35,354 nt of DNA from a virus. A program made the position numbers and the translations under genes. The notes beneath the pieces are model-generated. The model did not search any database, was not told where the DNA came from, and saw only the letters and a list, made by a program, of their open reading frames with translations. The stretch spans positions 1 to 35,354 of IMG/VR virus record IMGVR_UViG_3300006077_000015. One strand, written 5' to 3'. How positions within the stretch are numbered: position 1 is the stretch's first letter; every line of letters begins with the position of its first letter. This document shows, in pieces, positions 14,351 to 22,489 of the stretch.

Positions 14351-14370
14351 CCCCTAGCATTTGCTAGGGG
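14351..14370. terminator. Convergent hairpin between rightward and late modules
   Basis: CCCCTAGC / GCTAGGGG (14351-14358 with 14363-14370) with loop ATTT. The stop codon of the leftward giant gene (14364-14366) lies inside it. T-rich but interrupted tracts follow on both strands (ATTTCTTTT rightward, CTCTTTCTT leftward), so it probably acts as a moderate bidirectional terminator. Confidence 0.65.
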
Positions 14371-17300
14371 GCCATTATTTCTTTTAGTTTCTTTTTATAT
14401 TTTTCTGCTATTTTGTTCGCTCTTTTTCTTAAATCTTCCTTATTAATTTTACCTTGCTGATATTTATATTTTAATCTATACAATTCTTTTAAATATGCAC
14501 CCTCTAATTTTTTCTGCCTGTAAATTGCTTGAGCTGCTAACTCAGGTGTACCGTATTTATAAATATTTGTACCGGTTAACCATCTTTCAAATACAGGTTG
14601 CTTTGATTCCCTCCACCTTTTAATCTGTTCTATTGTAGCAGGCTCTAGCCACTGTTCTGCAACATATGCTGCACCTTTCTTTAGTTTGTCTATTTCAGTA
14701 TCAAGTGGACTATACAATTCCTTACCTGTAAAAATGTCTTTCCCCGTGATAGCTTCATATGGCACACCTAAAGGCGAACTACCAAAGCCTAATTCGCTTA
14801 GAGCTGAACCAACCTTACCTTGGCCAGCCTCATATATAGCTTTGGATAGCCAGCCAACTGGTAAAATTTGAGTAATGTCCACATATAAATGTTTCCCATC
14901 TTTTGTCATGATGTGAACAACAAGAGGATCTCTTAACCATTCAGGCCTTAATTTTTGCCCAACTTCATATTTTTTGCCATATTTCTTTTTGTAATATTGC
15001 TCTATTTTGTTTTTGAGCACATACAAACTAGATACAAGCATAGCGGTAGTTACAGGCTTATTTGCTAGTGCCCTAAATAATTGTCCAGCAGATTTTGACA
15101 TAAAAGTAATAAATGGGCTAAGCAACAGTTTTCCTGCAATGCCCTTTGTACTATCCAATCTTGGGCTCCTGACCTGCCTTACCCAATAAGGGACATAACC
15201 ATAATCATAATGAATTTGCTGAGCCTTTTTTATAGCTTCTAGCCTTGAAAGGCCTCTTTCCCTAAAAATTCTATATGTGTTTAATTTTGCAAAGTCATCT
15301 ATCCAGCCATAAGGGACTGCTGCTTTTTGAAAAAAATCAAAAACGTTGCTTAATTTACCATTTTCTCCTTTTAACTGCTGCAAGACATCTATAATTTCTC
15401 TTTTAGCAAAATTTTCTCCAATTAATCCCATTCTTAATGCTTCTTTATAATATTTGTCTTTTGTTAATATCCCTTTAACTGTCTCAGGCATTTCTTTTAT
15501 ATACCTGACAGGGTTATATCCTTCTAAAGCAAATTGAAAAATATTGGAGATAAAATTTCTAGGATAAGACCTTAGATTAAATGGAACTTTTGCAATCTTA
15601 AACCAGGTATAAATAGTAGATAAAGCCTTATCCATTTTTCCAAGTGCAGTCTCAGGCTCATTCGTGATATTCCATATAGACTTTATCTGCAAGCCAACAT
15701 CTTTATGAATTGGCGCCCCAGTTAAAATGCCATACTTAACATCATCTCCTGATAAAACAAAATAATCATCTGGGAGTTTGTCTTTTATAGATTCAATTAA
15801 AGTCTCTTTGTTTTTAATATCTTCTTTTAATTCAGACAATTTTGATTTTATTTTTTCATCTGTAATTGCCTTTTTGCCAAAATAATCCTCTAACCAAGGC
15901 AACAACTTTTCTTTAGCAAACTTAGGAGACATTTCCTTTGGAAGGCCTTCTATATTAAATGGGTTCTTTACCAAAAATTCTTGAGGAACAATTGTTGGGT
16001 CTTTTACAATTTCTTTATAAAAATCATCAGTTGCTGTGTTATGCCAATTTTTGGCAATGGTTGTCCTAATGGCAAGCTCTGGGTCCTCTATGTACCCTAA
16101 AGCTTCTCTATCTTTTTTTGCTATGTCCATTATACTTTCAATCTTTCTGTTTTTAAAAATCTTCTGTTGAGTAACTCCACCAACACTGCTAATTCCTGAC
16201 AACTTATCTTGCATATACAATCTAGCCAAGTATCTCTTTGCCCATTTTGCTCGCTGTGAAGGAGTAATAAATCCTCTTTTCATAAGCTCGTTTGAGCTTG
16301 TATCTATCGCATTTACGATTTTATCTAAATCCTTAGTTATCCCTTTAAAATCTTTCAGTTTTCTGGCAACGTCTCTAAATGTCGGGTCTTCCATATAGCG
16401 AACTATAACTTCTATAGCGGTCTGTTCTTGTTTGCTATAATTTTTTAGTAATCTTCTTACTAATTTACCAAGCTGGTCTGCTTTTAGTGCTCCCTTTGCC
16501 TGACCTGGGCGATATTCTCCATAAAGAGCGTTTTCAAATCTTTCTACACTTTCTTTAGGAAGATGTGGGAGAGGATGAGATAAAGACTTGAGCAATTGAT
16601 AGGTCTTTATAAAGGCTTTCTTATCTTGAAGTTTTTGAAAGATTTTTTGTAAACCATTTTTAACCAGTTCATCAGCCTGCTGAAGACCTTTAATGAGATC
16701 AAGTCCTGTATAAAACTCTAAAGGTTTAACATCTACCCCAAATCTTTTTAAAATATCTTCAGGCGCAGGATGGATAACAGGAGAAATTGCACCTACAAAT
16801 TTATTCCCATCATAAATAACGATATTAGGAGCATCTGTTATTTTAAAATTAAGTTGTTTATAGTTCTTTTTTAGAAATCCTATTGTATTTTTATCAATGC
16901 CAACAATATTAGAATTAATTATCTCAGCAGTTTGTGGATCTTTAATCGCAAACCAAACAACACCATCATCCTCACCGATAATAGAATTAAGATTACTTAG
17001 AGGTTCTCCAATTGATTTTCCTAATTCCTTTGATGTCCTTTCTATTCTTCCTTTTTTTGTTAAAGACTCAAACCGTTTTAAAAAATTTTTAGGAGCAGTT
17101 TCTTCTTTTAATAATAGTTTTGGCTCCCCAATAAAACCATCTGAAGTTTTTATAAAAACAGACTTCGGTTTTAAAATTTTAGTAATTGTTGTTTTTTTAG
17201 GTAAAATAGAATCTGCTTCTTTTAATTCTATTGTTTTTATACTTTGTAAAGCTTTTGCTTTTTTAGCCAGTTTTTGTGCTTTTTCTTGCCTTTCCCTCAA

Positions 17301-19091
17301 AATTCTTTTCCCTTCAGCAATAATATTTTCGTGAGCAAATTTTTCTCCCAAACTAACAGTGTCAGATGCAGCCGTTCCAGCCAGCATTGCCTTTGTCTCT
17401 TCTGGTAATTCTGGGAATTCTTTATCAACTATTTTTTGATAATAATCTTTCATTTGGTTATAAATCTTGTCCCTTTCTTTGGTCTTTTCTACATTGAGGT
17501 ATTTTGTTTTTAATTGTTCTATGTTTTCTTGTGTTTTTTTAAACCCAAAGTTTTTTTGTTCTAAATCAGAAAGTTTAATATTTTTTAATTTTCCTTCAAG
17601 ACTATCTAAAATATCAAAAAAATCATTTTGATTTGTATTTTCTACTTCAGCACGGACTTTATCCCAAATTTCTTTAGAGATAGGTACATAATCATCTTTG
17701 CTTTTACCAAAGTAAACTCTCATTATCTCTGGATTATTTTTTGCCTGCCAAAAATCAACTTTTTTACTATTTATTCCCTTTTCATTTGAAATAATACTTT
17801 CAATTAGTGTGACAGTCGCTAAATCTTTATCATTTTTATAATTTATAGGTCTCATTTTTTCTTTAACGGGAAACATTTTATTATAATCTCTCTTAATTAC
17901 CTTTTGAAGAGCATCATTTAAATCTTTAGCGCCTCCACGATCTAGTAGCTCTTGAGCTGCTAGTTTTACTTCTTCTGGATATTGTTTAGGTTGTTGTGTA
18001 ACTTTAACTTCAGGTTTTATTGGCTCCATAGGAGACTCAACAGGCCCTTCAACTGGTCCAGCAAAAACAGAAGGAGTGATTTCTTTTTGAGCTTCTCCAG
18101 TTGGTATTATCGTACCTTCTGGGATCACCTCTCCTTTTGTTATAGGACTTTCAGGCAGGGCAACCTTTTGAGTCGGTTTAATAAAGGCCTCATTTGCAAT
18201 TTTATTTATCTCAGGAATATTTTCCTGCATTGGCTGAGCTTTAGAGGGGACAGGTAAATCCCTCCTGAACTCTGGTTTGACCATTTCAAAAGCATAATCA
18301 GGAAGAGCGTATACAGTTTTCTTAAACTCATCGCTCACATTTGGGTCTTTAAGAACTAAATCAATAACTTTGCCTGCTTCTGGATTTTTGATTTCACTAT
18401 CAACAACATTTTGCAAGTCTTCTAAAGTTATCTTTTTGCTTTTAGCCTTATCAAATATTGCATTTTTTATCTTTAAAAATGCTTCTTTGTCTGCTTTATT
18501 TATAATTGCTTTTTGGAGTCTGCCTTCAAACATTTTAGCACTAGTAGCGCCGAGAGCTAACGGCACAACTAGGCCTAAACCAATTTTAATTGGAGTAGGT
18601 ATGTCGCTTTTAAAGACCTTATCTAAAATAGCTTCCGATCCAACACCAACAGGGACATCTGCTCCACTAGCAACCGCTCCACTTAATAACGCTCTGCCAG
18701 CGCTTAAACCAGCCTTAGCAGCTCCTAGGGCCCCTACTGCACCCGCTGTTATTGCTGCAACTGGATCTATAAAAGTATTCCCCAAAAATAAACTTGACGC
18801 ACTAGTTAAATCTGGTGCTGTTGCTTGTTCAAAAGTAGCTGCTTGTTTGGATTTTTGAATACTTTGTTGAGTAAGGTTTTTGTAATCACTTACAAATTTA
18901 TCTATAACCTGTTTTCTTTGACGGCCATTCAGTTCTTTAAAAGCAGGATCTCTTGTGTATAAAATTTTATACAAAGTTCCAGGCTGACTAATTAATTTTT
19001 GAGTAACAATTGTCTTTTGTTCTGGAGTAAGTTTAGCAAATAAAGGGTCTCTCTTTGCAAGAGTTTGTATTAAAAGAGGCATATCATTCAT
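14364..19091 (-). CDS. Giant internal virion / DNA-ejection protein (1575 aa)
   Basis: Largest gene of the window and last of the late operon. No enzyme domain is recognised. The N-terminus carries a duplicated motif of about 26 residues, TLAKRDPLFAKLTPEQK and ILYTRDPAFKELNGRQRK, 33 residues apart. Residues about 110-190 are Gly/Ala-rich and hydrophobic in two blocks (VAAITAGAVGALGAAKAG; IKIGLGLVVPLALGATSA), suited to membrane insertion. A Pro/Glu-rich region follows (about 290-390), then long charged helices, and a C-terminal third with LLLSPFITFMSKSAGQLF and further amphipathic segments. Length, position after the tail genes and composition match podovirus internal proteins such as the ejection proteins of T7-like phages. 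GAGG lies eight bases before ATG 19091; ATG 19097, two codons earlier, is possible. Confidence 0.78.
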   Translation of the reverse strand: MNDMPLLIQTLAKRDPLFAKLTPEQKTIVTQKLISQPGTLYKILYTRDPAFKELNGRQRKQVIDKFVSDYKNLTQQSIQKSKQAATFEQATAPDLTSASSLFLGNTFIDPVAAITAGAVGALGAAKAGLSAGRALLSGAVASGADVPVGVGSEAILDKVFKSDIPTPIKIGLGLVVPLALGATSAKMFEGRLQKAIINKADKEAFLKIKNAIFDKAKSKKITLEDLQNVVDSEIKNPEAGKVIDLVLKDPNVSDEFKKTVYALPDYAFEMVKPEFRRDLPVPSKAQPMQENIPEINKIANEAFIKPTQKVALPESPITKGEVIPEGTIIPTGEAQKEITPSVFAGPVEGPVESPMEPIKPEVKVTQQPKQYPEEVKLAAQELLDRGGAKDLNDALQKVIKRDYNKMFPVKEKMRPINYKNDKDLATVTLIESIISNEKGINSKKVDFWQAKNNPEIMRVYFGKSKDDYVPISKEIWDKVRAEVENTNQNDFFDILDSLEGKLKNIKLSDLEQKNFGFKKTQENIEQLKTKYLNVEKTKERDKIYNQMKDYYQKIVDKEFPELPEETKAMLAGTAASDTVSLGEKFAHENIIAEGKRILRERQEKAQKLAKKAKALQSIKTIELKEADSILPKKTTITKILKPKSVFIKTSDGFIGEPKLLLKEETAPKNFLKRFESLTKKGRIERTSKELGKSIGEPLSNLNSIIGEDDGVVWFAIKDPQTAEIINSNIVGIDKNTIGFLKKNYKQLNFKITDAPNIVIYDGNKFVGAISPVIHPAPEDILKRFGVDVKPLEFYTGLDLIKGLQQADELVKNGLQKIFQKLQDKKAFIKTYQLLKSLSHPLPHLPKESVERFENALYGEYRPGQAKGALKADQLGKLVRRLLKNYSKQEQTAIEVIVRYMEDPTFRDVARKLKDFKGITKDLDKIVNAIDTSSNELMKRGFITPSQRAKWAKRYLARLYMQDKLSGISSVGGVTQQKIFKNRKIESIMDIAKKDREALGYIEDPELAIRTTIAKNWHNTATDDFYKEIVKDPTIVPQEFLVKNPFNIEGLPKEMSPKFAKEKLLPWLEDYFGKKAITDEKIKSKLSELKEDIKNKETLIESIKDKLPDDYFVLSGDDVKYGILTGAPIHKDVGLQIKSIWNITNEPETALGKMDKALSTIYTWFKIAKVPFNLRSYPRNFISNIFQFALEGYNPVRYIKEMPETVKGILTKDKYYKEALRMGLIGENFAKREIIDVLQQLKGENGKLSNVFDFFQKAAVPYGWIDDFAKLNTYRIFRERGLSRLEAIKKAQQIHYDYGYVPYWVRQVRSPRLDSTKGIAGKLLLSPFITFMSKSAGQLFRALANKPVTTAMLVSSLYVLKNKIEQYYKKKYGKKYEVGQKLRPEWLRDPLVVHIMTKDGKHLYVDITQILPVGWLSKAIYEAGQGKVGSALSELGFGSSPLGVPYEAITGKDIFTGKELYSPLDTEIDKLKKGAAYVAEQWLEPATIEQIKRWRESKQPVFERWLTGTNIYKYGTPELAAQAIYRQKKLEGAYLKELYRLKYKYQQGKINKEDLRKRANKIAEKYKKKLKEIMAP

Positions 19092-19101
19092 AAACATTAC
19101 C

Positions 19102-20100
19102 TCATTTAGATTTTAAAAGTTCAAGATATGGATTAGTTTCTGTAGAGTTGCTGTTTTGCTGCATTAAGCCAAGATAGGGATTAACATTAGAAGTGGGAGT
19201 CATTGCTGATAAATCTATGTTATATGCTTGTCCAATTTGTTTATATAGCTCAACTCCAGTATCCATTAACTTAAATCCTTTCAAAACATAATCCAACAAC
19301 TTCTTTGCTTCCTGGTCTCCAGCTTGAGCCTGTTTTACCAAAAAACTTGTAAGAATCTCTCTGTTCTGAGGATTATCTAAATCCTGTTCATTTAACTGCA
19401 ACAAAGCTCCTTGATACTTGTTTTTAATAAGAGATAATGCAGTGCTAATATATTGCCTACCTGAACCAATTAACTGTTTAGCAAAATTTATTTTGCTCTG
19501 TATGTCTTTCTGAGTTGTTTGTGTTCCTTTTGTTGCTGGTTGTTGATAAATAGGAGTAGCCTTACCTTCTGGACCTACCTTTACTAGAGCATCCCCAATT
19601 TTAAAATATTTGTTGCTCGGTTTTTGTTGTTGTGGTTGTGCATACTCTTGTAATATCTTATTAATATCTTCTGGAGTAAAACCAAGTTGCAAAGATAAGG
19701 TAGTAGCATCATGCATGAATCCTACATGATCAAAAGTTCCATTTGGTTTTAAATGTTTATTGTACGCTTGTTTTAACCCTTGACTTAAAGCAAGCAATCT
19801 CTGCCTGGTTGATTGTTCTGCTGTTTTTTGAGCTTCCTGTTGCAAACTATTAATTAACATTTCTGTTGCTAATTTATTTTTTAAATGAGATTGCTGTTGT
19901 TCCTCTTGGATCTGTTGATTAAGTAAGCCTTGAGTACCTCCAGTCCAACCTCTAAGTAAACCACCAGCAAAAGAATCTGAGCCGGTCAATCCCTTTGCAA
20001 GCAACCCTGCCAACGATCCAGCTAAGAGTCTCTTTGCTGCTTCGTTATAATATCTCCCATAATTAGGTTTTTGAAAAATGTTTTCAGATAAACCAGCCAT
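19102..20100 (-). CDS. Putative internal virion protein
   Basis: 332-aa protein, Gln-rich, helical. Residues 20-60 are Gly/Ala/Leu-rich (LLAGSLAGLLAKGLTGSDSF) and may be membrane-active. A Gln-rich coiled region follows (about 60-110), then a middle with IGDALVKVGPEGKATPIY, and a C-terminus with repeated NPYLGLM and NPYLELL. It lies directly upstream of the giant protein and shares its composition, which suggests a second ejection or core protein of a short-tailed virion. AGGAG gives the start, which lies inside the 3' end of the SpeD-like gene (79-base overlap). Assignment is by position and composition, not by a domain. Confidence 0.7.
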   Translation of the reverse strand: MAGLSENIFQKPNYGRYYNEAAKRLLAGSLAGLLAKGLTGSDSFAGGLLRGWTGGTQGLLNQQIQEEQQQSHLKNKLATEMLINSLQQEAQKTAEQSTRQRLLALSQGLKQAYNKHLKPNGTFDHVGFMHDATTLSLQLGFTPEDINKILQEYAQPQQQKPSNKYFKIGDALVKVGPEGKATPIYQQPATKGTQTTQKDIQSKINFAKQLIGSGRQYISTALSLIKNKYQGALLQLNEQDLDNPQNREILTSFLVKQAQAGDQEAKKLLDYVLKGFKLMDTGVELYKQIGQAYNIDLSAMTPTSNVNPYLGLMQQNSNSTETNPYLELLKSK

Positions 20101-20492
20101 CTTTTTCTCCTATACAATATAGTTTTTGTTCTAGGCTCTCCTGTATATATTTCAGAAGAACCACACCACACCAAATATGGATTAAATGTTTTTATCGCAA
20201 CATCTATTGCTTTATTCACATTAAAATTTTTACAAGAATTTATAACAATATTTAAATATTCAAGCTCGCTCCATGTATCCACTGCAATATAGCTCTCTTT
20301 TAAAGGCTGAAAAGCTAAAAAAGAAGATAGCCCAGGATTATCAAATGGAGGATCATATTTTATTAACCTAATATCTCCATGAGACCTCATCTTTATTGCT
20401 ATTACGCAATTATTTAAAAACTCTATGATTTTGTCTGCTTTTATATAAACAGGAAGAGTTTTTAAGTGAATAACTTGCAACCTACCTCTCAT
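20022..20492 (-). CDS. speD: SpeD-like pyruvoyl decarboxylase (AdoMet decarboxylase family), atypical
   Basis: 156-aa protein of the class 1 prokaryotic SpeD family, self-cleaving enzymes with a Ser-derived pyruvoyl group that normally make decarboxylated AdoMet, the aminopropyl donor for spermidine. The core LKESYIAVDTWSELEYL lines up with the bacterial processing-site core around ES(H)xxxHTWPE. The cleavage pair Glu66-Ser67 is kept, and Cys87 falls at the exact spacing of the catalytic Cys (position 83 of the Thermotoga enzyme). The processing His (68 there) is Asp72, and the following Pro is Ser. This suggests changed processing or substrate; SpeD relatives acting on ornithine or arginine are known. 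The stop of speE overlaps its start (ATGA). Its last 26 residues overlap the next virion gene. Some alternative fold cannot be excluded, but the SpeE neighbour makes the call strong. Confidence 0.8.
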   Translation of the reverse strand: MRGRLQVIHLKTLPVYIKADKIIEFLNNCVIAIKMRSHGDIRLIKYDPPFDNPGLSSFLAFQPLKESYIAVDTWSELEYLNIVINSCKNFNVNKAIDVAIKTFNPYLVWCGSSEIYTGEPRTKTILYRRKRWLVYLKTFFKNLIMGDIITKQQRDS

Positions 20493-21343
20493 TGTCCAGT
20501 TCTCCAGCTTAAATGATTTGCTAAAGCCATCCCATAAACATACATATCGTATACACTATCGTTCGCATCCCCCTCTTTTAACCATGTTCTTAAATCTTTA
20601 CTCCAACTAGTAGCAGATAAAAACATCTGCTTGTCAAAAGCTCTTGTTTCTATATCTTTTAACCTGCCCCAAACAGGTTGAGGCTTGTGATTCATCGCAA
20701 TCCAAAAACCTTGAATACCGCCCAACATTTCAACCTTTACGGGAAAACAATATTTAAAAACTTTTCTAAGTTTTGCCCCAACTGTTGACATTACGGGAAC
20801 AATCATTCCACCACCAGCCTGAATAATAAAAACGCCTCCAGGTTTTAAAACTCTATTTATTTCTTTATAATGTTCTATTTCAAATAGTTTTTCTAACGCC
20901 AAACTAGAAGGATCTGGATAATCTGCAAACACAATATCAAACTTGTTTTTTCTGCATTCCTGTATCCATTTGTAAGCATCTTTGTTATAAATTTTTACTT
21001 TTTCAGAGTTAAAAGAATTTTTATTAAGAGCCATTATTAATTCATTTTCTTTAGCTAATCTTGTCATTTCAGGGTCTATGTCAACAACAGTCACCTTTTC
21101 TGCAAATTTAAGAGCTTCTCTTGCAGCAAGACCATCTCCACCACCTAGAATTAAAATTTTTTTAGGATCCTTTTCACACAAAACTAAAGGAGCAAATATC
21201 GCTAATTCATGATACCTATATTCATCTGCGCTGTGAAACTGAGTGCATAAATTCAAGTCAAGCCTAATATGACCAGTTTCTTTATCTGCTAACAATTCTA
21301 TCATTTGGAATTGACTATTTAAATGGAGAACTTTCTCCCACAT
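20489..21343 (-). CDS. speE: Spermidine synthase-like aminopropyltransferase
   Basis: 284-aa SpeE-family protein, Rossmann fold. The family transfers an aminopropyl group from decarboxylated AdoMet to putrescine. Motifs: TQFHSADEYRYHELAIFAP (Q35, D40, Y44, H45) from the N-terminal beta domain and gate, ILILGGGDGLAARE (glycine loop 67-71), VVDIDPEM (D88/D90), NKDAYKWI (D122), VFADYPDPSS (catalytic-loop Asp141 and Asp144) and LKPGGVFIIQ (Q175). The DYPDPSS form is nearer to DLPDPSN-type homologues than to the classical DSSDPxGP. AAGGAG gives the start. It is coupled to the SpeD-like gene and sits between virion genes, so spermidine is presumably made late, when DNA is packed. Confidence 0.9.
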   Translation of the reverse strand: MWEKVLHLNSQFQMIELLADKETGHIRLDLNLCTQFHSADEYRYHELAIFAPLVLCEKDPKKILILGGGDGLAAREALKFAEKVTVVDIDPEMTRLAKENELIMALNKNSFNSEKVKIYNKDAYKWIQECRKNKFDIVFADYPDPSSLALEKLFEIEHYKEINRVLKPGGVFIIQAGGGMIVPVMSTVGAKLRKVFKYCFPVKVEMLGGIQGFWIAMNHKPQPVWGRLKDIETRAFDKQMFLSATSWSKDLRTWLKEGDANDSVYDMYVYGMALANHLSWRTGQ

Positions 21344-21359
21344 ATTATCTCCTTATTGT

Positions 21360-22079
21360 TTATACAAATGGTATCGCTCCAGCTGTAGCTGCTGGAACCA
21401 TAGAAGGTGCAGCCATAGCAATCTGAGAACCACCGCCAAAAAGAGAAGATAAACCACTACCAATAGACGAAATACCTACTGGCAAATAATAAGCCCCTGC
21501 CATTCCTAAAGTAGTGCCAAGTGCTTGACCAAATGGCGAAGGACCACTTTGTGTAGTTATTGTTGTTGGTGGGGTTCCCATTCTGCCAGCATAAAGAGAG
21601 TTCCAAATATTAAACATCTTTTGATATTGTTTGTCTAAACCCTGTTGCTGTAATTGATCCAAGGCTGACAATCTATGTAATTTATCGGCCATAGATTGTT
21701 GTCTTAACCCTTCTAACAAACCAAGACCTCTAGTCTTTAACTCTGCTCCTCTTTCTGCTAAAGATTGTCCCAAGTCTCGCATCGCATTCTGAGTTATTGT
21801 TGAGTTTAGAACACCTCTTTGAGCAAAAGTATTCAAAAAATCTCCCCATTTTCTTTCATATGGACGCATCGATAAATAGGGATTGGAAAAAGTTTGAACA
21901 GTCTGAGGCAAAGGCTCATAAAAAGTTCGCAATGTCTGTTGCAGCTCAGGCAATGGGGTGTATGGTTTGTTAGATAAATCTACAAGCTGAGACAAAAGTT
22001 GTCTTTCTTCTGCACTTTGCCCTGGGATATTCCTTGTTGTTACAGTTTTTGTTTCTGATTTTCCAAATAGGCTACCCAT
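21360..22079 (-). CDS. Putative virion protein (tail or internal)
   Basis: 239-aa protein. Starts MGSLFGKSETKTVTT, has an Arg/Leu/Gln-rich helical middle (about 95-165, including AMRDLGQSLAERGAELKTRG) and a Gly/Ala/Pro-rich, hydrophobic C-terminal 55 residues. This pattern, small polar head plus Gln-rich helices plus a glycine-rich membrane-active tail, recurs in proteins encoded before podovirus ejection proteins. No enzymatic motif. AGGAGG precedes the ATG, and speE follows upstream of its stop by about 16 bases. Likely a minor virion component. Confidence 0.68.
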   Translation of the reverse strand: MGSLFGKSETKTVTTRNIPGQSAEERQLLSQLVDLSNKPYTPLPELQQTLRTFYEPLPQTVQTFSNPYLSMRPYERKWGDFLNTFAQRGVLNSTITQNAMRDLGQSLAERGAELKTRGLGLLEGLRQQSMADKLHRLSALDQLQQQGLDKQYQKMFNIWNSLYAGRMGTPPTTITTQSGPSPFGQALGTTLGMAGAYYLPVGISSIGSGLSSLFGGGSQIAMAAPSMVPAATAGAIPFV

Positions 22080-22090
22080 TTTTTAGCCTC

Positions 22091-22489
22091 CTAAATATTT
22101 ATTTTCATTGTGTAACCAATGTTTTCTGCATTTAAAAGCCTACCCCATGCCCTGGGATTTCTTTCTGTATTAAAATAAATACCTGTTGCTCCACTTTTTT
22201 TAGCAAACTCAATTAACGCCATTTTCATCTCTTTTGGCCTATCTGTTGAACATTGAGCAACAAATAAATCGTTATAAACGTTGTCCATAAATACTAAAGC
22301 AAAACCATGAATTTCTTTGTTATTGTTAACCAAAATTAATAATCTGTAAACATTTAAAGGTATAAAGGCCATCATTAAGCGATTTAGTTCGCCTTCTTCT
22401 AAACCTTCTTTAAGTTTTGCAATATACTTTCTCCAATAATCTTTTAGTTTTAAAATTATTTCTGGGGTTTGTACTTGTATTAGTTGCAT
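22091..22489 (-). CDS. GNAT-like acetyltransferase fold protein
   Basis: 132-aa protein resembling short phage proteins of the GNAT fold: N-terminal helices (VQTPEIILKLKDYWRKYIAK), a central strand pair YRLLILVNNNKEIHGFALVF and a C-terminal FAKKSGATGIYFNTERNPRAW with AENIGYTMKINI. The classic acetyl-CoA loop (R/Q-x-x-G-x-G/A) is not evident, so the protein may be structural or inactive. It lies between the tailspike and a virion gene. The ATG lacks a good ribosome site and is preceded by a 78-base A+T-rich gap. Confidence 0.65.
   Translation of the reverse strand: MQLIQVQTPEIILKLKDYWRKYIAKLKEGLEEGELNRLMMAFIPLNVYRLLILVNNNKEIHGFALVFMDNVYNDLFVAQCSTDRPKEMKMALIEFAKKSGATGIYFNTERNPRAWGRLLNAENIGYTMKINI

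Follow-up and report, generated by a model that had tools for sequence, protein, structure and literature searches.

What does a pair of polyamine gene homologues do in the virion module of a phage, and what can a SpeD contribute that carries an aspartate in place of its processing histidine? The window analysed here, a 35,354-base IMG/VR virus record, encodes on its minus strand a speE homologue, a predicted aminopropyltransferase of 284 amino acids (20489..21343), and a speD homologue of 156 amino acids with a class 1b AdoMetDC fold and an altered active site (20022..20492). The two genes are coupled: the speE stop TGA (20489–20491) and the speD start ATG (20490–20492) share bases in an ATGA overlap (20489..20492, minus strand). 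A preliminary description had proposed these reading frames, both homologies and the coupling. The frames and the overlap were verified in the sequence, and Pfam scores above the cut-offs confirmed the homologies. The last 26 codons of speD overlap the start of the next gene (20022..20100, minus strand), as they do in L001, a related contig. This next gene has a separate AGGAG, located 7 nt before its ATG.

The left neighbour of the pair is a gene for 239 amino acids (21360..22079, minus strand), which is conserved beside SpeE in relatives. The right neighbour (19102..20100, minus strand) codes for 332 amino acids and, by position, for a probable virion-associated protein. The strand of the pair also carries the large terminase, the portal (assigned via homology to relatives), an SU10 major capsid protein, an SU10 adaptor, a head-closure-like protein and a beta-helix tail protein. 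With head and tail genes on this single strand, the placement of the pair in the structural module, as proposed before, is correct, and the phage is of the SU10-capsid type. A family-model search with the 239-aa, 332-aa and 1577-aa neighbours gave no match, and the label 'internal virion' for the downstream 332-aa and 1577-aa genes is thus based on position. The terminase was closest to Campylobacter phages (42%) and the capsid to uncultured spring phages. A tRNA search of the window found none.

SpeE matched the Pfam model Spermine_synth (PF01564; E 1.7e-31, 109.7 bits, cut-off 22.9), in agreement with PDB sequence and fold matches. Alignments placed Asp141-Tyr-Pro-Asp144 (20912..20923, minus strand) on the catalytic-site aspartates of aminopropyltransferases, which have a catalytic role in this family. 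A GGGDG motif was aligned at residues 67–71 (21131..21145, minus strand) and presents Asp70 as its acid. The acid in GxG(D/E)G has been reported to separate users of decarboxylated AdoMet (dcAdoMet) from a related methyltransferase (PMC10349129), and the phage protein falls on the side of the dcAdoMet users. Because this acid and both aspartates aligned with the catalytic site are present, SpeE is most likely an active aminopropyltransferase which, judged from motifs and model, would use dcAdoMet to lengthen a polyamine. A methyltransferase would be conceivable, since the fungal NHMT is a spermidine-synthase-like protein with that activity (PMC10349129). NHMT, however, is without the GGGDG acid, and the top fold matches of SpeE were aminopropyltransferases (Z 33.5 vs 18.4 for METTL13). 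A methyltransferase function of SpeE was rejected on the retained GGGDG.

The polyamine accepted by SpeE is less defined. The predicted model (pLDDT 92) was nearest to the triamine/agmatine aminopropyltransferase of T. thermophilus (Z 33.5) and the thermospermine synthase of Medicago (33.4), at about 26–30% identity, followed by spermidine synthases with values of at most 32; such small Z differences do not settle the substrate specificity. The best PDB sequence match was a thermospermine synthase. Thermospermine synthases usually have a glutamate in motif 2, whereas the phage SpeE has an aspartate. For an aspartate in motif 2, published motif rules do not split spermidine from thermospermine synthases (PMC11107197). 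All full-length phage SpeE relatives share the acceptor-side segment VEM-x-x-GIQGFW, which is peculiar to this group in comparison with the Thermus and plant enzymes. The segment departs from the common motif P-x-Y/F and does not fix the amine acceptor. The score against the NCBIfam speE equivalog TIGR00417 was 112.9 bits, under the cut-off of 249.55. The top NCBIfam match was NF002956, the PRK03612-type polyamine aminopropyltransferase, with 188.4 bits in the C-terminal half, under the cut-off of 472; of this 522-position model, the phage SpeE is without the N-terminal half. An enzyme of the triamine/thermospermine type is as likely as a spermidine synthase.

SpeD matched Pfam AdoMet_dc (PF02675) with 30.4 bits (E 5.4e-7, cut-off 25). 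Its 24.8 bits against the NCBIfam equivalog TIGR03330 were under the cut-off of 75.65, which the canonical SpeDs of L092 (53.2) and L099 (58.7) did not reach either. A phmmer search of SpeD against PDB sequences gave no match, and a fold comparison was therefore needed. The AlphaFold2 model, calculated from 34 aligned sequences of the window and related loci, was confident in the core, which extends to about residue 115, and of low confidence in the tail. Since the tail includes the region of 3′ overlap, the real domain likely comprises residues 1 to about 115. The comparison with Thermotoga SpeD (1vr7), which the preliminary description had called for, yielded Z 15.0 and an rmsd of 2.3 over 111 residues: the protein has the SpeD fold and not an unrelated one. 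Next were Aquifex SpeD and then human and plant AdoMetDC. The model further aligned with the N-terminal domain of human spermine synthase at Z 10.0 and, at Z 9.6, with the T. brucei AdoMetDC/prozyme complex.

A match of the model to the phage SAM lyase 6zm9 had Z 7.8, a range that, according to the tool, possibly reflects only a common arrangement; this lyase has been described as PII-like. On this Z value, SpeD was not accepted as a SAM lyase. An AdoMet-degrading SpeD, a methylating SpeE or both would take the pair out of polyamine synthesis. Such a function is highly improbable.

The active site of SpeD was examined with T. maritima 1tlu (sequence verified) as residue ruler and 52 further homologues of viral, bacterial and, in one case, archaeal (DPANN) origin, or 36 once 90%-alike sequences were removed. 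None of these varies at Thermotoga positions 63 (S), 64 (H), 68 (H), 69 (T), 70 (W) or 83 (C). The canonical motif ESHxxxHTWPE reads Glu66-Ser67-Tyr68-IAV-Asp72-Thr-Trp-Ser75-Glu76 in the window (20265..20297, minus strand). The equivalents of the pyruvoyl serine (Ser67 for Ser63) and of the catalytic cysteine (Cys87 for Cys83; 20232..20234, minus strand) are retained, the cysteine being invariant in all homologues. Trp74 and Glu76 are also present; their T. maritima equivalents presumably contact the adenosyl part of the substrate. Tyr68 replaces His64, Asp72 replaces His68, Ser75 replaces Pro71 and Val83 replaces Asp79, a conserved acid. Both histidines occur in 52/52 of the other homologues.

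The combination of tyrosine and aspartate was found only in the window and in the 91%-identical L001 among the homologues compared. The patterns that fetched the viral homologues were derived from the alignment and allowed H/Y at 64 and H/D at 68, so that the Tyr and Asp forms could pass this step; their hits were then confirmed via similarity to a canonical SpeD. For the bacterial homologues, the patterns were canonical, which biases this set towards HTW. The pattern scan of viral contigs found the Tyr/Asp form only in L001, and a scan of 199 genomes of one bacterial phylum found the His form in 31 and the Asp form in 0.

According to a study on T. maritima SpeD, S63, H68 and C83 are needed for processing, and these residues were expected and shown to be conserved in the AdoMetDC, SpeDA (arginine decarboxylase, ADC) and SpeDC (ornithine decarboxylase, ODC) types (PMC10407285). 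The window and L001 have aspartate at the position of His68, the processing histidine of class 1b SpeD. SpeD has the fold and lacks a defining residue of the enzyme. Given the published requirement of His68 for processing, these alignments make an ordinary AdoMetDC unlikely, and the proposed formation of dcAdoMet by this SpeD is unsupported. The codon list bore out Glu66, Ser67, Asp72 and Cys87 as first described. The replacement of the processing histidine by Asp72 is real; it had been understated, as two invariant histidines and the equivalents of Pro71 and Asp79 are gone. Homology, fold and the columns of the 52 homologues uphold the view that SpeD is atypical enough for an altered processing or substrate.

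Loss of invariant active-site residues may indicate a decaying gene that was recently moved beside speE and has no present function. The displacement of the stop codon into the next gene fits decay, as does the 36.7-kb L005 record, which has SpeE and gave no SpeD match. Purifying selection acts on both genes, however. Between the window and L001, the only genome pair on which these estimates rest, dN/dS was 0.074 for SpeD codons 1–130 (dS 0.61) and 0.034 for SpeE, near the 0.016–0.066 of neighbouring and structural genes. Over SpeD residues 61–90, the sole difference is V71I. Synonymous changes are absent from the 26 overlapping codons, as expected for an overlapping frame. The recurrence of the substitutions in L001 and the low dN/dS indicate that the variant is neither an error nor in evident decay, and the confident predicted fold also argues against decay, which is improbable. 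On the evidence of this one genome pair, the histidine-less SpeD is a maintained protein.

A maintained SpeD could still be a self-cleaving pyruvoyl decarboxylase that acts on AdoMet, arginine or ornithine, with Asp72 and/or Tyr68 in the role of the lost histidines. The retained Ser67, Glu66, Cys87, Trp74 and Glu76, together with the constancy of residues 61–90 in two genomes, support a decarboxylase, and phage SpeDs with a changed substrate are documented (PMC9992855). The work of Li et al. 2023 covers phage SpeDs, SpeDs that have become ornithine or arginine decarboxylases, and one phage whose speD-speE pair is functional (PMC9992855). As in SpeDA and SpeDC (PMC9992855; PMC10407285), the window protein has a SpeD fold drifting from AdoMet decarboxylation. 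The loss of a conserved proline is reported for SpeDA, and Gln, Thr, Phe and Tyr as diagnostic residues for SpeDC (PMC10407285); in the window, Pro71 reads Ser. SpeDA and SpeDC, with activity on arginine or ornithine, retain the His68 that processing reportedly requires (PMC10407285), whereas both histidines are gone in the window SpeD and Pro71 and the acid at 79 are altered as well. We consider a re-wired decarboxylase, the main rival, possible but doubtful.

The explanation we favour, at about even chances, is an accessory polyamine gene pair in the structural module of an SU10-capsid phage, with SpeD as a SpeD-fold partner of an active SpeE. SpeE would transfer an aminopropyl group from dcAdoMet and lengthen a polyamine. 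SpeD, devoid of the His64 and His68 equivalents, would probably not process itself as an ordinary AdoMetDC does, and would most likely persist as a partner that assembles with SpeE or with the SpeD of the host. The dcAdoMet would come from the host enzyme. In the sister phages L090 and L092, a canonical phage SpeD would supply it. A partner function is suggested by the coupling to speE and by two precedents: the trypanosome prozyme, a non-catalytic AdoMetDC fold that aids an active partner (PMC5201418), and the N-terminal domain of human spermine synthase, an AdoMetDC fold that serves dimerisation (PMC11203672). Both precedents are eukaryotic, and prozyme is reported only in trypanosomatids. 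Unlike either, the phage SpeD retains the cleavage serine, and its partner is putative.

Some observations speak against a partner. Glu66-Ser67, Cys87, Trp74 and Glu76 are more than a pure scaffold needs. Selection was estimated from one genome pair, and the activity of SpeE is predicted, with an acceptor segment off the usual motif. A more specific proposal, made by analogy, is accordingly tentative: SpeD, its translation coupled to that of SpeE, would be a prozyme-like pseudoenzyme whose binding activates SpeE or the SpeD of the host. If true, a bacterial virus would have its own counterpart of the prozyme of trypanosomes and of the domain with a SpeD fold in human spermine synthase.

The SpeE slot is kept across a small phage lineage. 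Seven further IMG/VR contigs encode this SpeE with 62–93% identity, one of them (L093) cut at the contig end, and in all seven the same left neighbour stands beside SpeE. In the window, L001, L089, L090, L092 and L094, SpeE is located between homologues of the 239-aa gene and, after it, the 332-aa gene. L005/L091 and L093 retain the left neighbour; in L005, a tail-fibre-like gene comes after SpeE. In the more distant L009, the corresponding flanking genes are adjacent with nothing between them, the homology of the left one being weak (E 2e-4) and that of the right one not significant. This arrangement fits an insertion of SpeE into the lineage, without proving it.

Further downstream, L090 and L092 encode a canonical SpeD (ESHVYIHTWPE), which is preceded by small Lys/Arg-rich ORFs and followed by spanin-like genes. 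The SpeD region of L099 is arranged likewise, and no SpeE was found on its 29-kb contig. L089, L093 and L094 end too early to judge the presence of SpeD. Directly before the canonical SpeD, L092 (11435–12233) and L099 (4239–4995) each carry three small Lys/Arg-rich ORFs, with the spanin-like genes after it; these ORFs could encode DNA-binding virion proteins.

Against 50,697 phage records, tblastn gave no match for the window SpeD and only two Salmonella records, at about 28%, for SpeE. Among 47 capsid relatives, PF02675 was found in one record and PF01564 in two; SU10-capsid phages thus do not carry the pair in general. When bacterial genomes were scanned with a three-row SpeE alignment, no relative turned up. 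Of the bacterial SpeEs encountered, the closest, with 38% identity, lies at about 2550–3020 of L149 (Gracilibacteria) and reads through TGA codons. This lineage reads TGA as glycine, so that read-through is expected. Two of the metagenomes involved, 3300014887 and 3300021472, are Guaymas Basin sediments according to published accession lists.

Phage speD-speE pairs and the neofunctionalisation of SpeD are already published; new are the histidine-less SpeD and the SpeE slot that this lineage conserves in its virion module. The pair of an uncultured Caudovirales phage (PMC9992855) resembles that of the window in having speD and speE homologues clustered in a tailed-phage genome. The two enzymes of that phage each restored the spermidine of E. 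coli mutants, whereas the window SpeD is without the processing histidine, the window SpeE belongs to another subtype and the window pair lies among the virion genes of a phage with an SU10 capsid. A SpeD that retains the cleavage serine and cysteine, is devoid of both invariant histidines and stays under strong selection offers a test of whether the pyruvoyl group can form without His68 or whether a dead SpeD serves as a phage regulator. A Pseudomonas phage reportedly depends on the host speD, and a role in DNA charge balance at packaging has been suggested (PMC3120641). Hypothetically, the phage studied here might make polyamine late, and polyamines might condense its packaged DNA. With SpeE amid virion genes in a lineage partly from hydrothermal sediment of the Guaymas Basin, virus-made polyamines and DNA packaging become testable in one system.

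Other polyamine genes and features of the region were observed. The viral contig IMGVR_UViG_3300030012_002034 (107,381 bp) has genes for a TSH...HTWDES-type SpeD homologue (L127:4839-5225) and for a fused SpeD-SpeE protein of 427 amino acids (L150:898-2181). If the former is an ornithine decarboxylase, a route that leads from ornithine to spermidine could be present on this contig. The large protein downstream of the pair is a mosaic (window 14364–19097 vs L001:10257-15173): its ends are 70–84% identical and the middle differs. A JAB/RadC-like stretch, HNHPGGSLSFSGHD, is present in the L001 copy and absent from that of the window. An ORF of 132 amino acids (window 22091–22489) looks acetyltransferase-like by eye and matched no family model; it stands before the 239-aa gene and is kept in all SpeE-bearing relatives that have this region.
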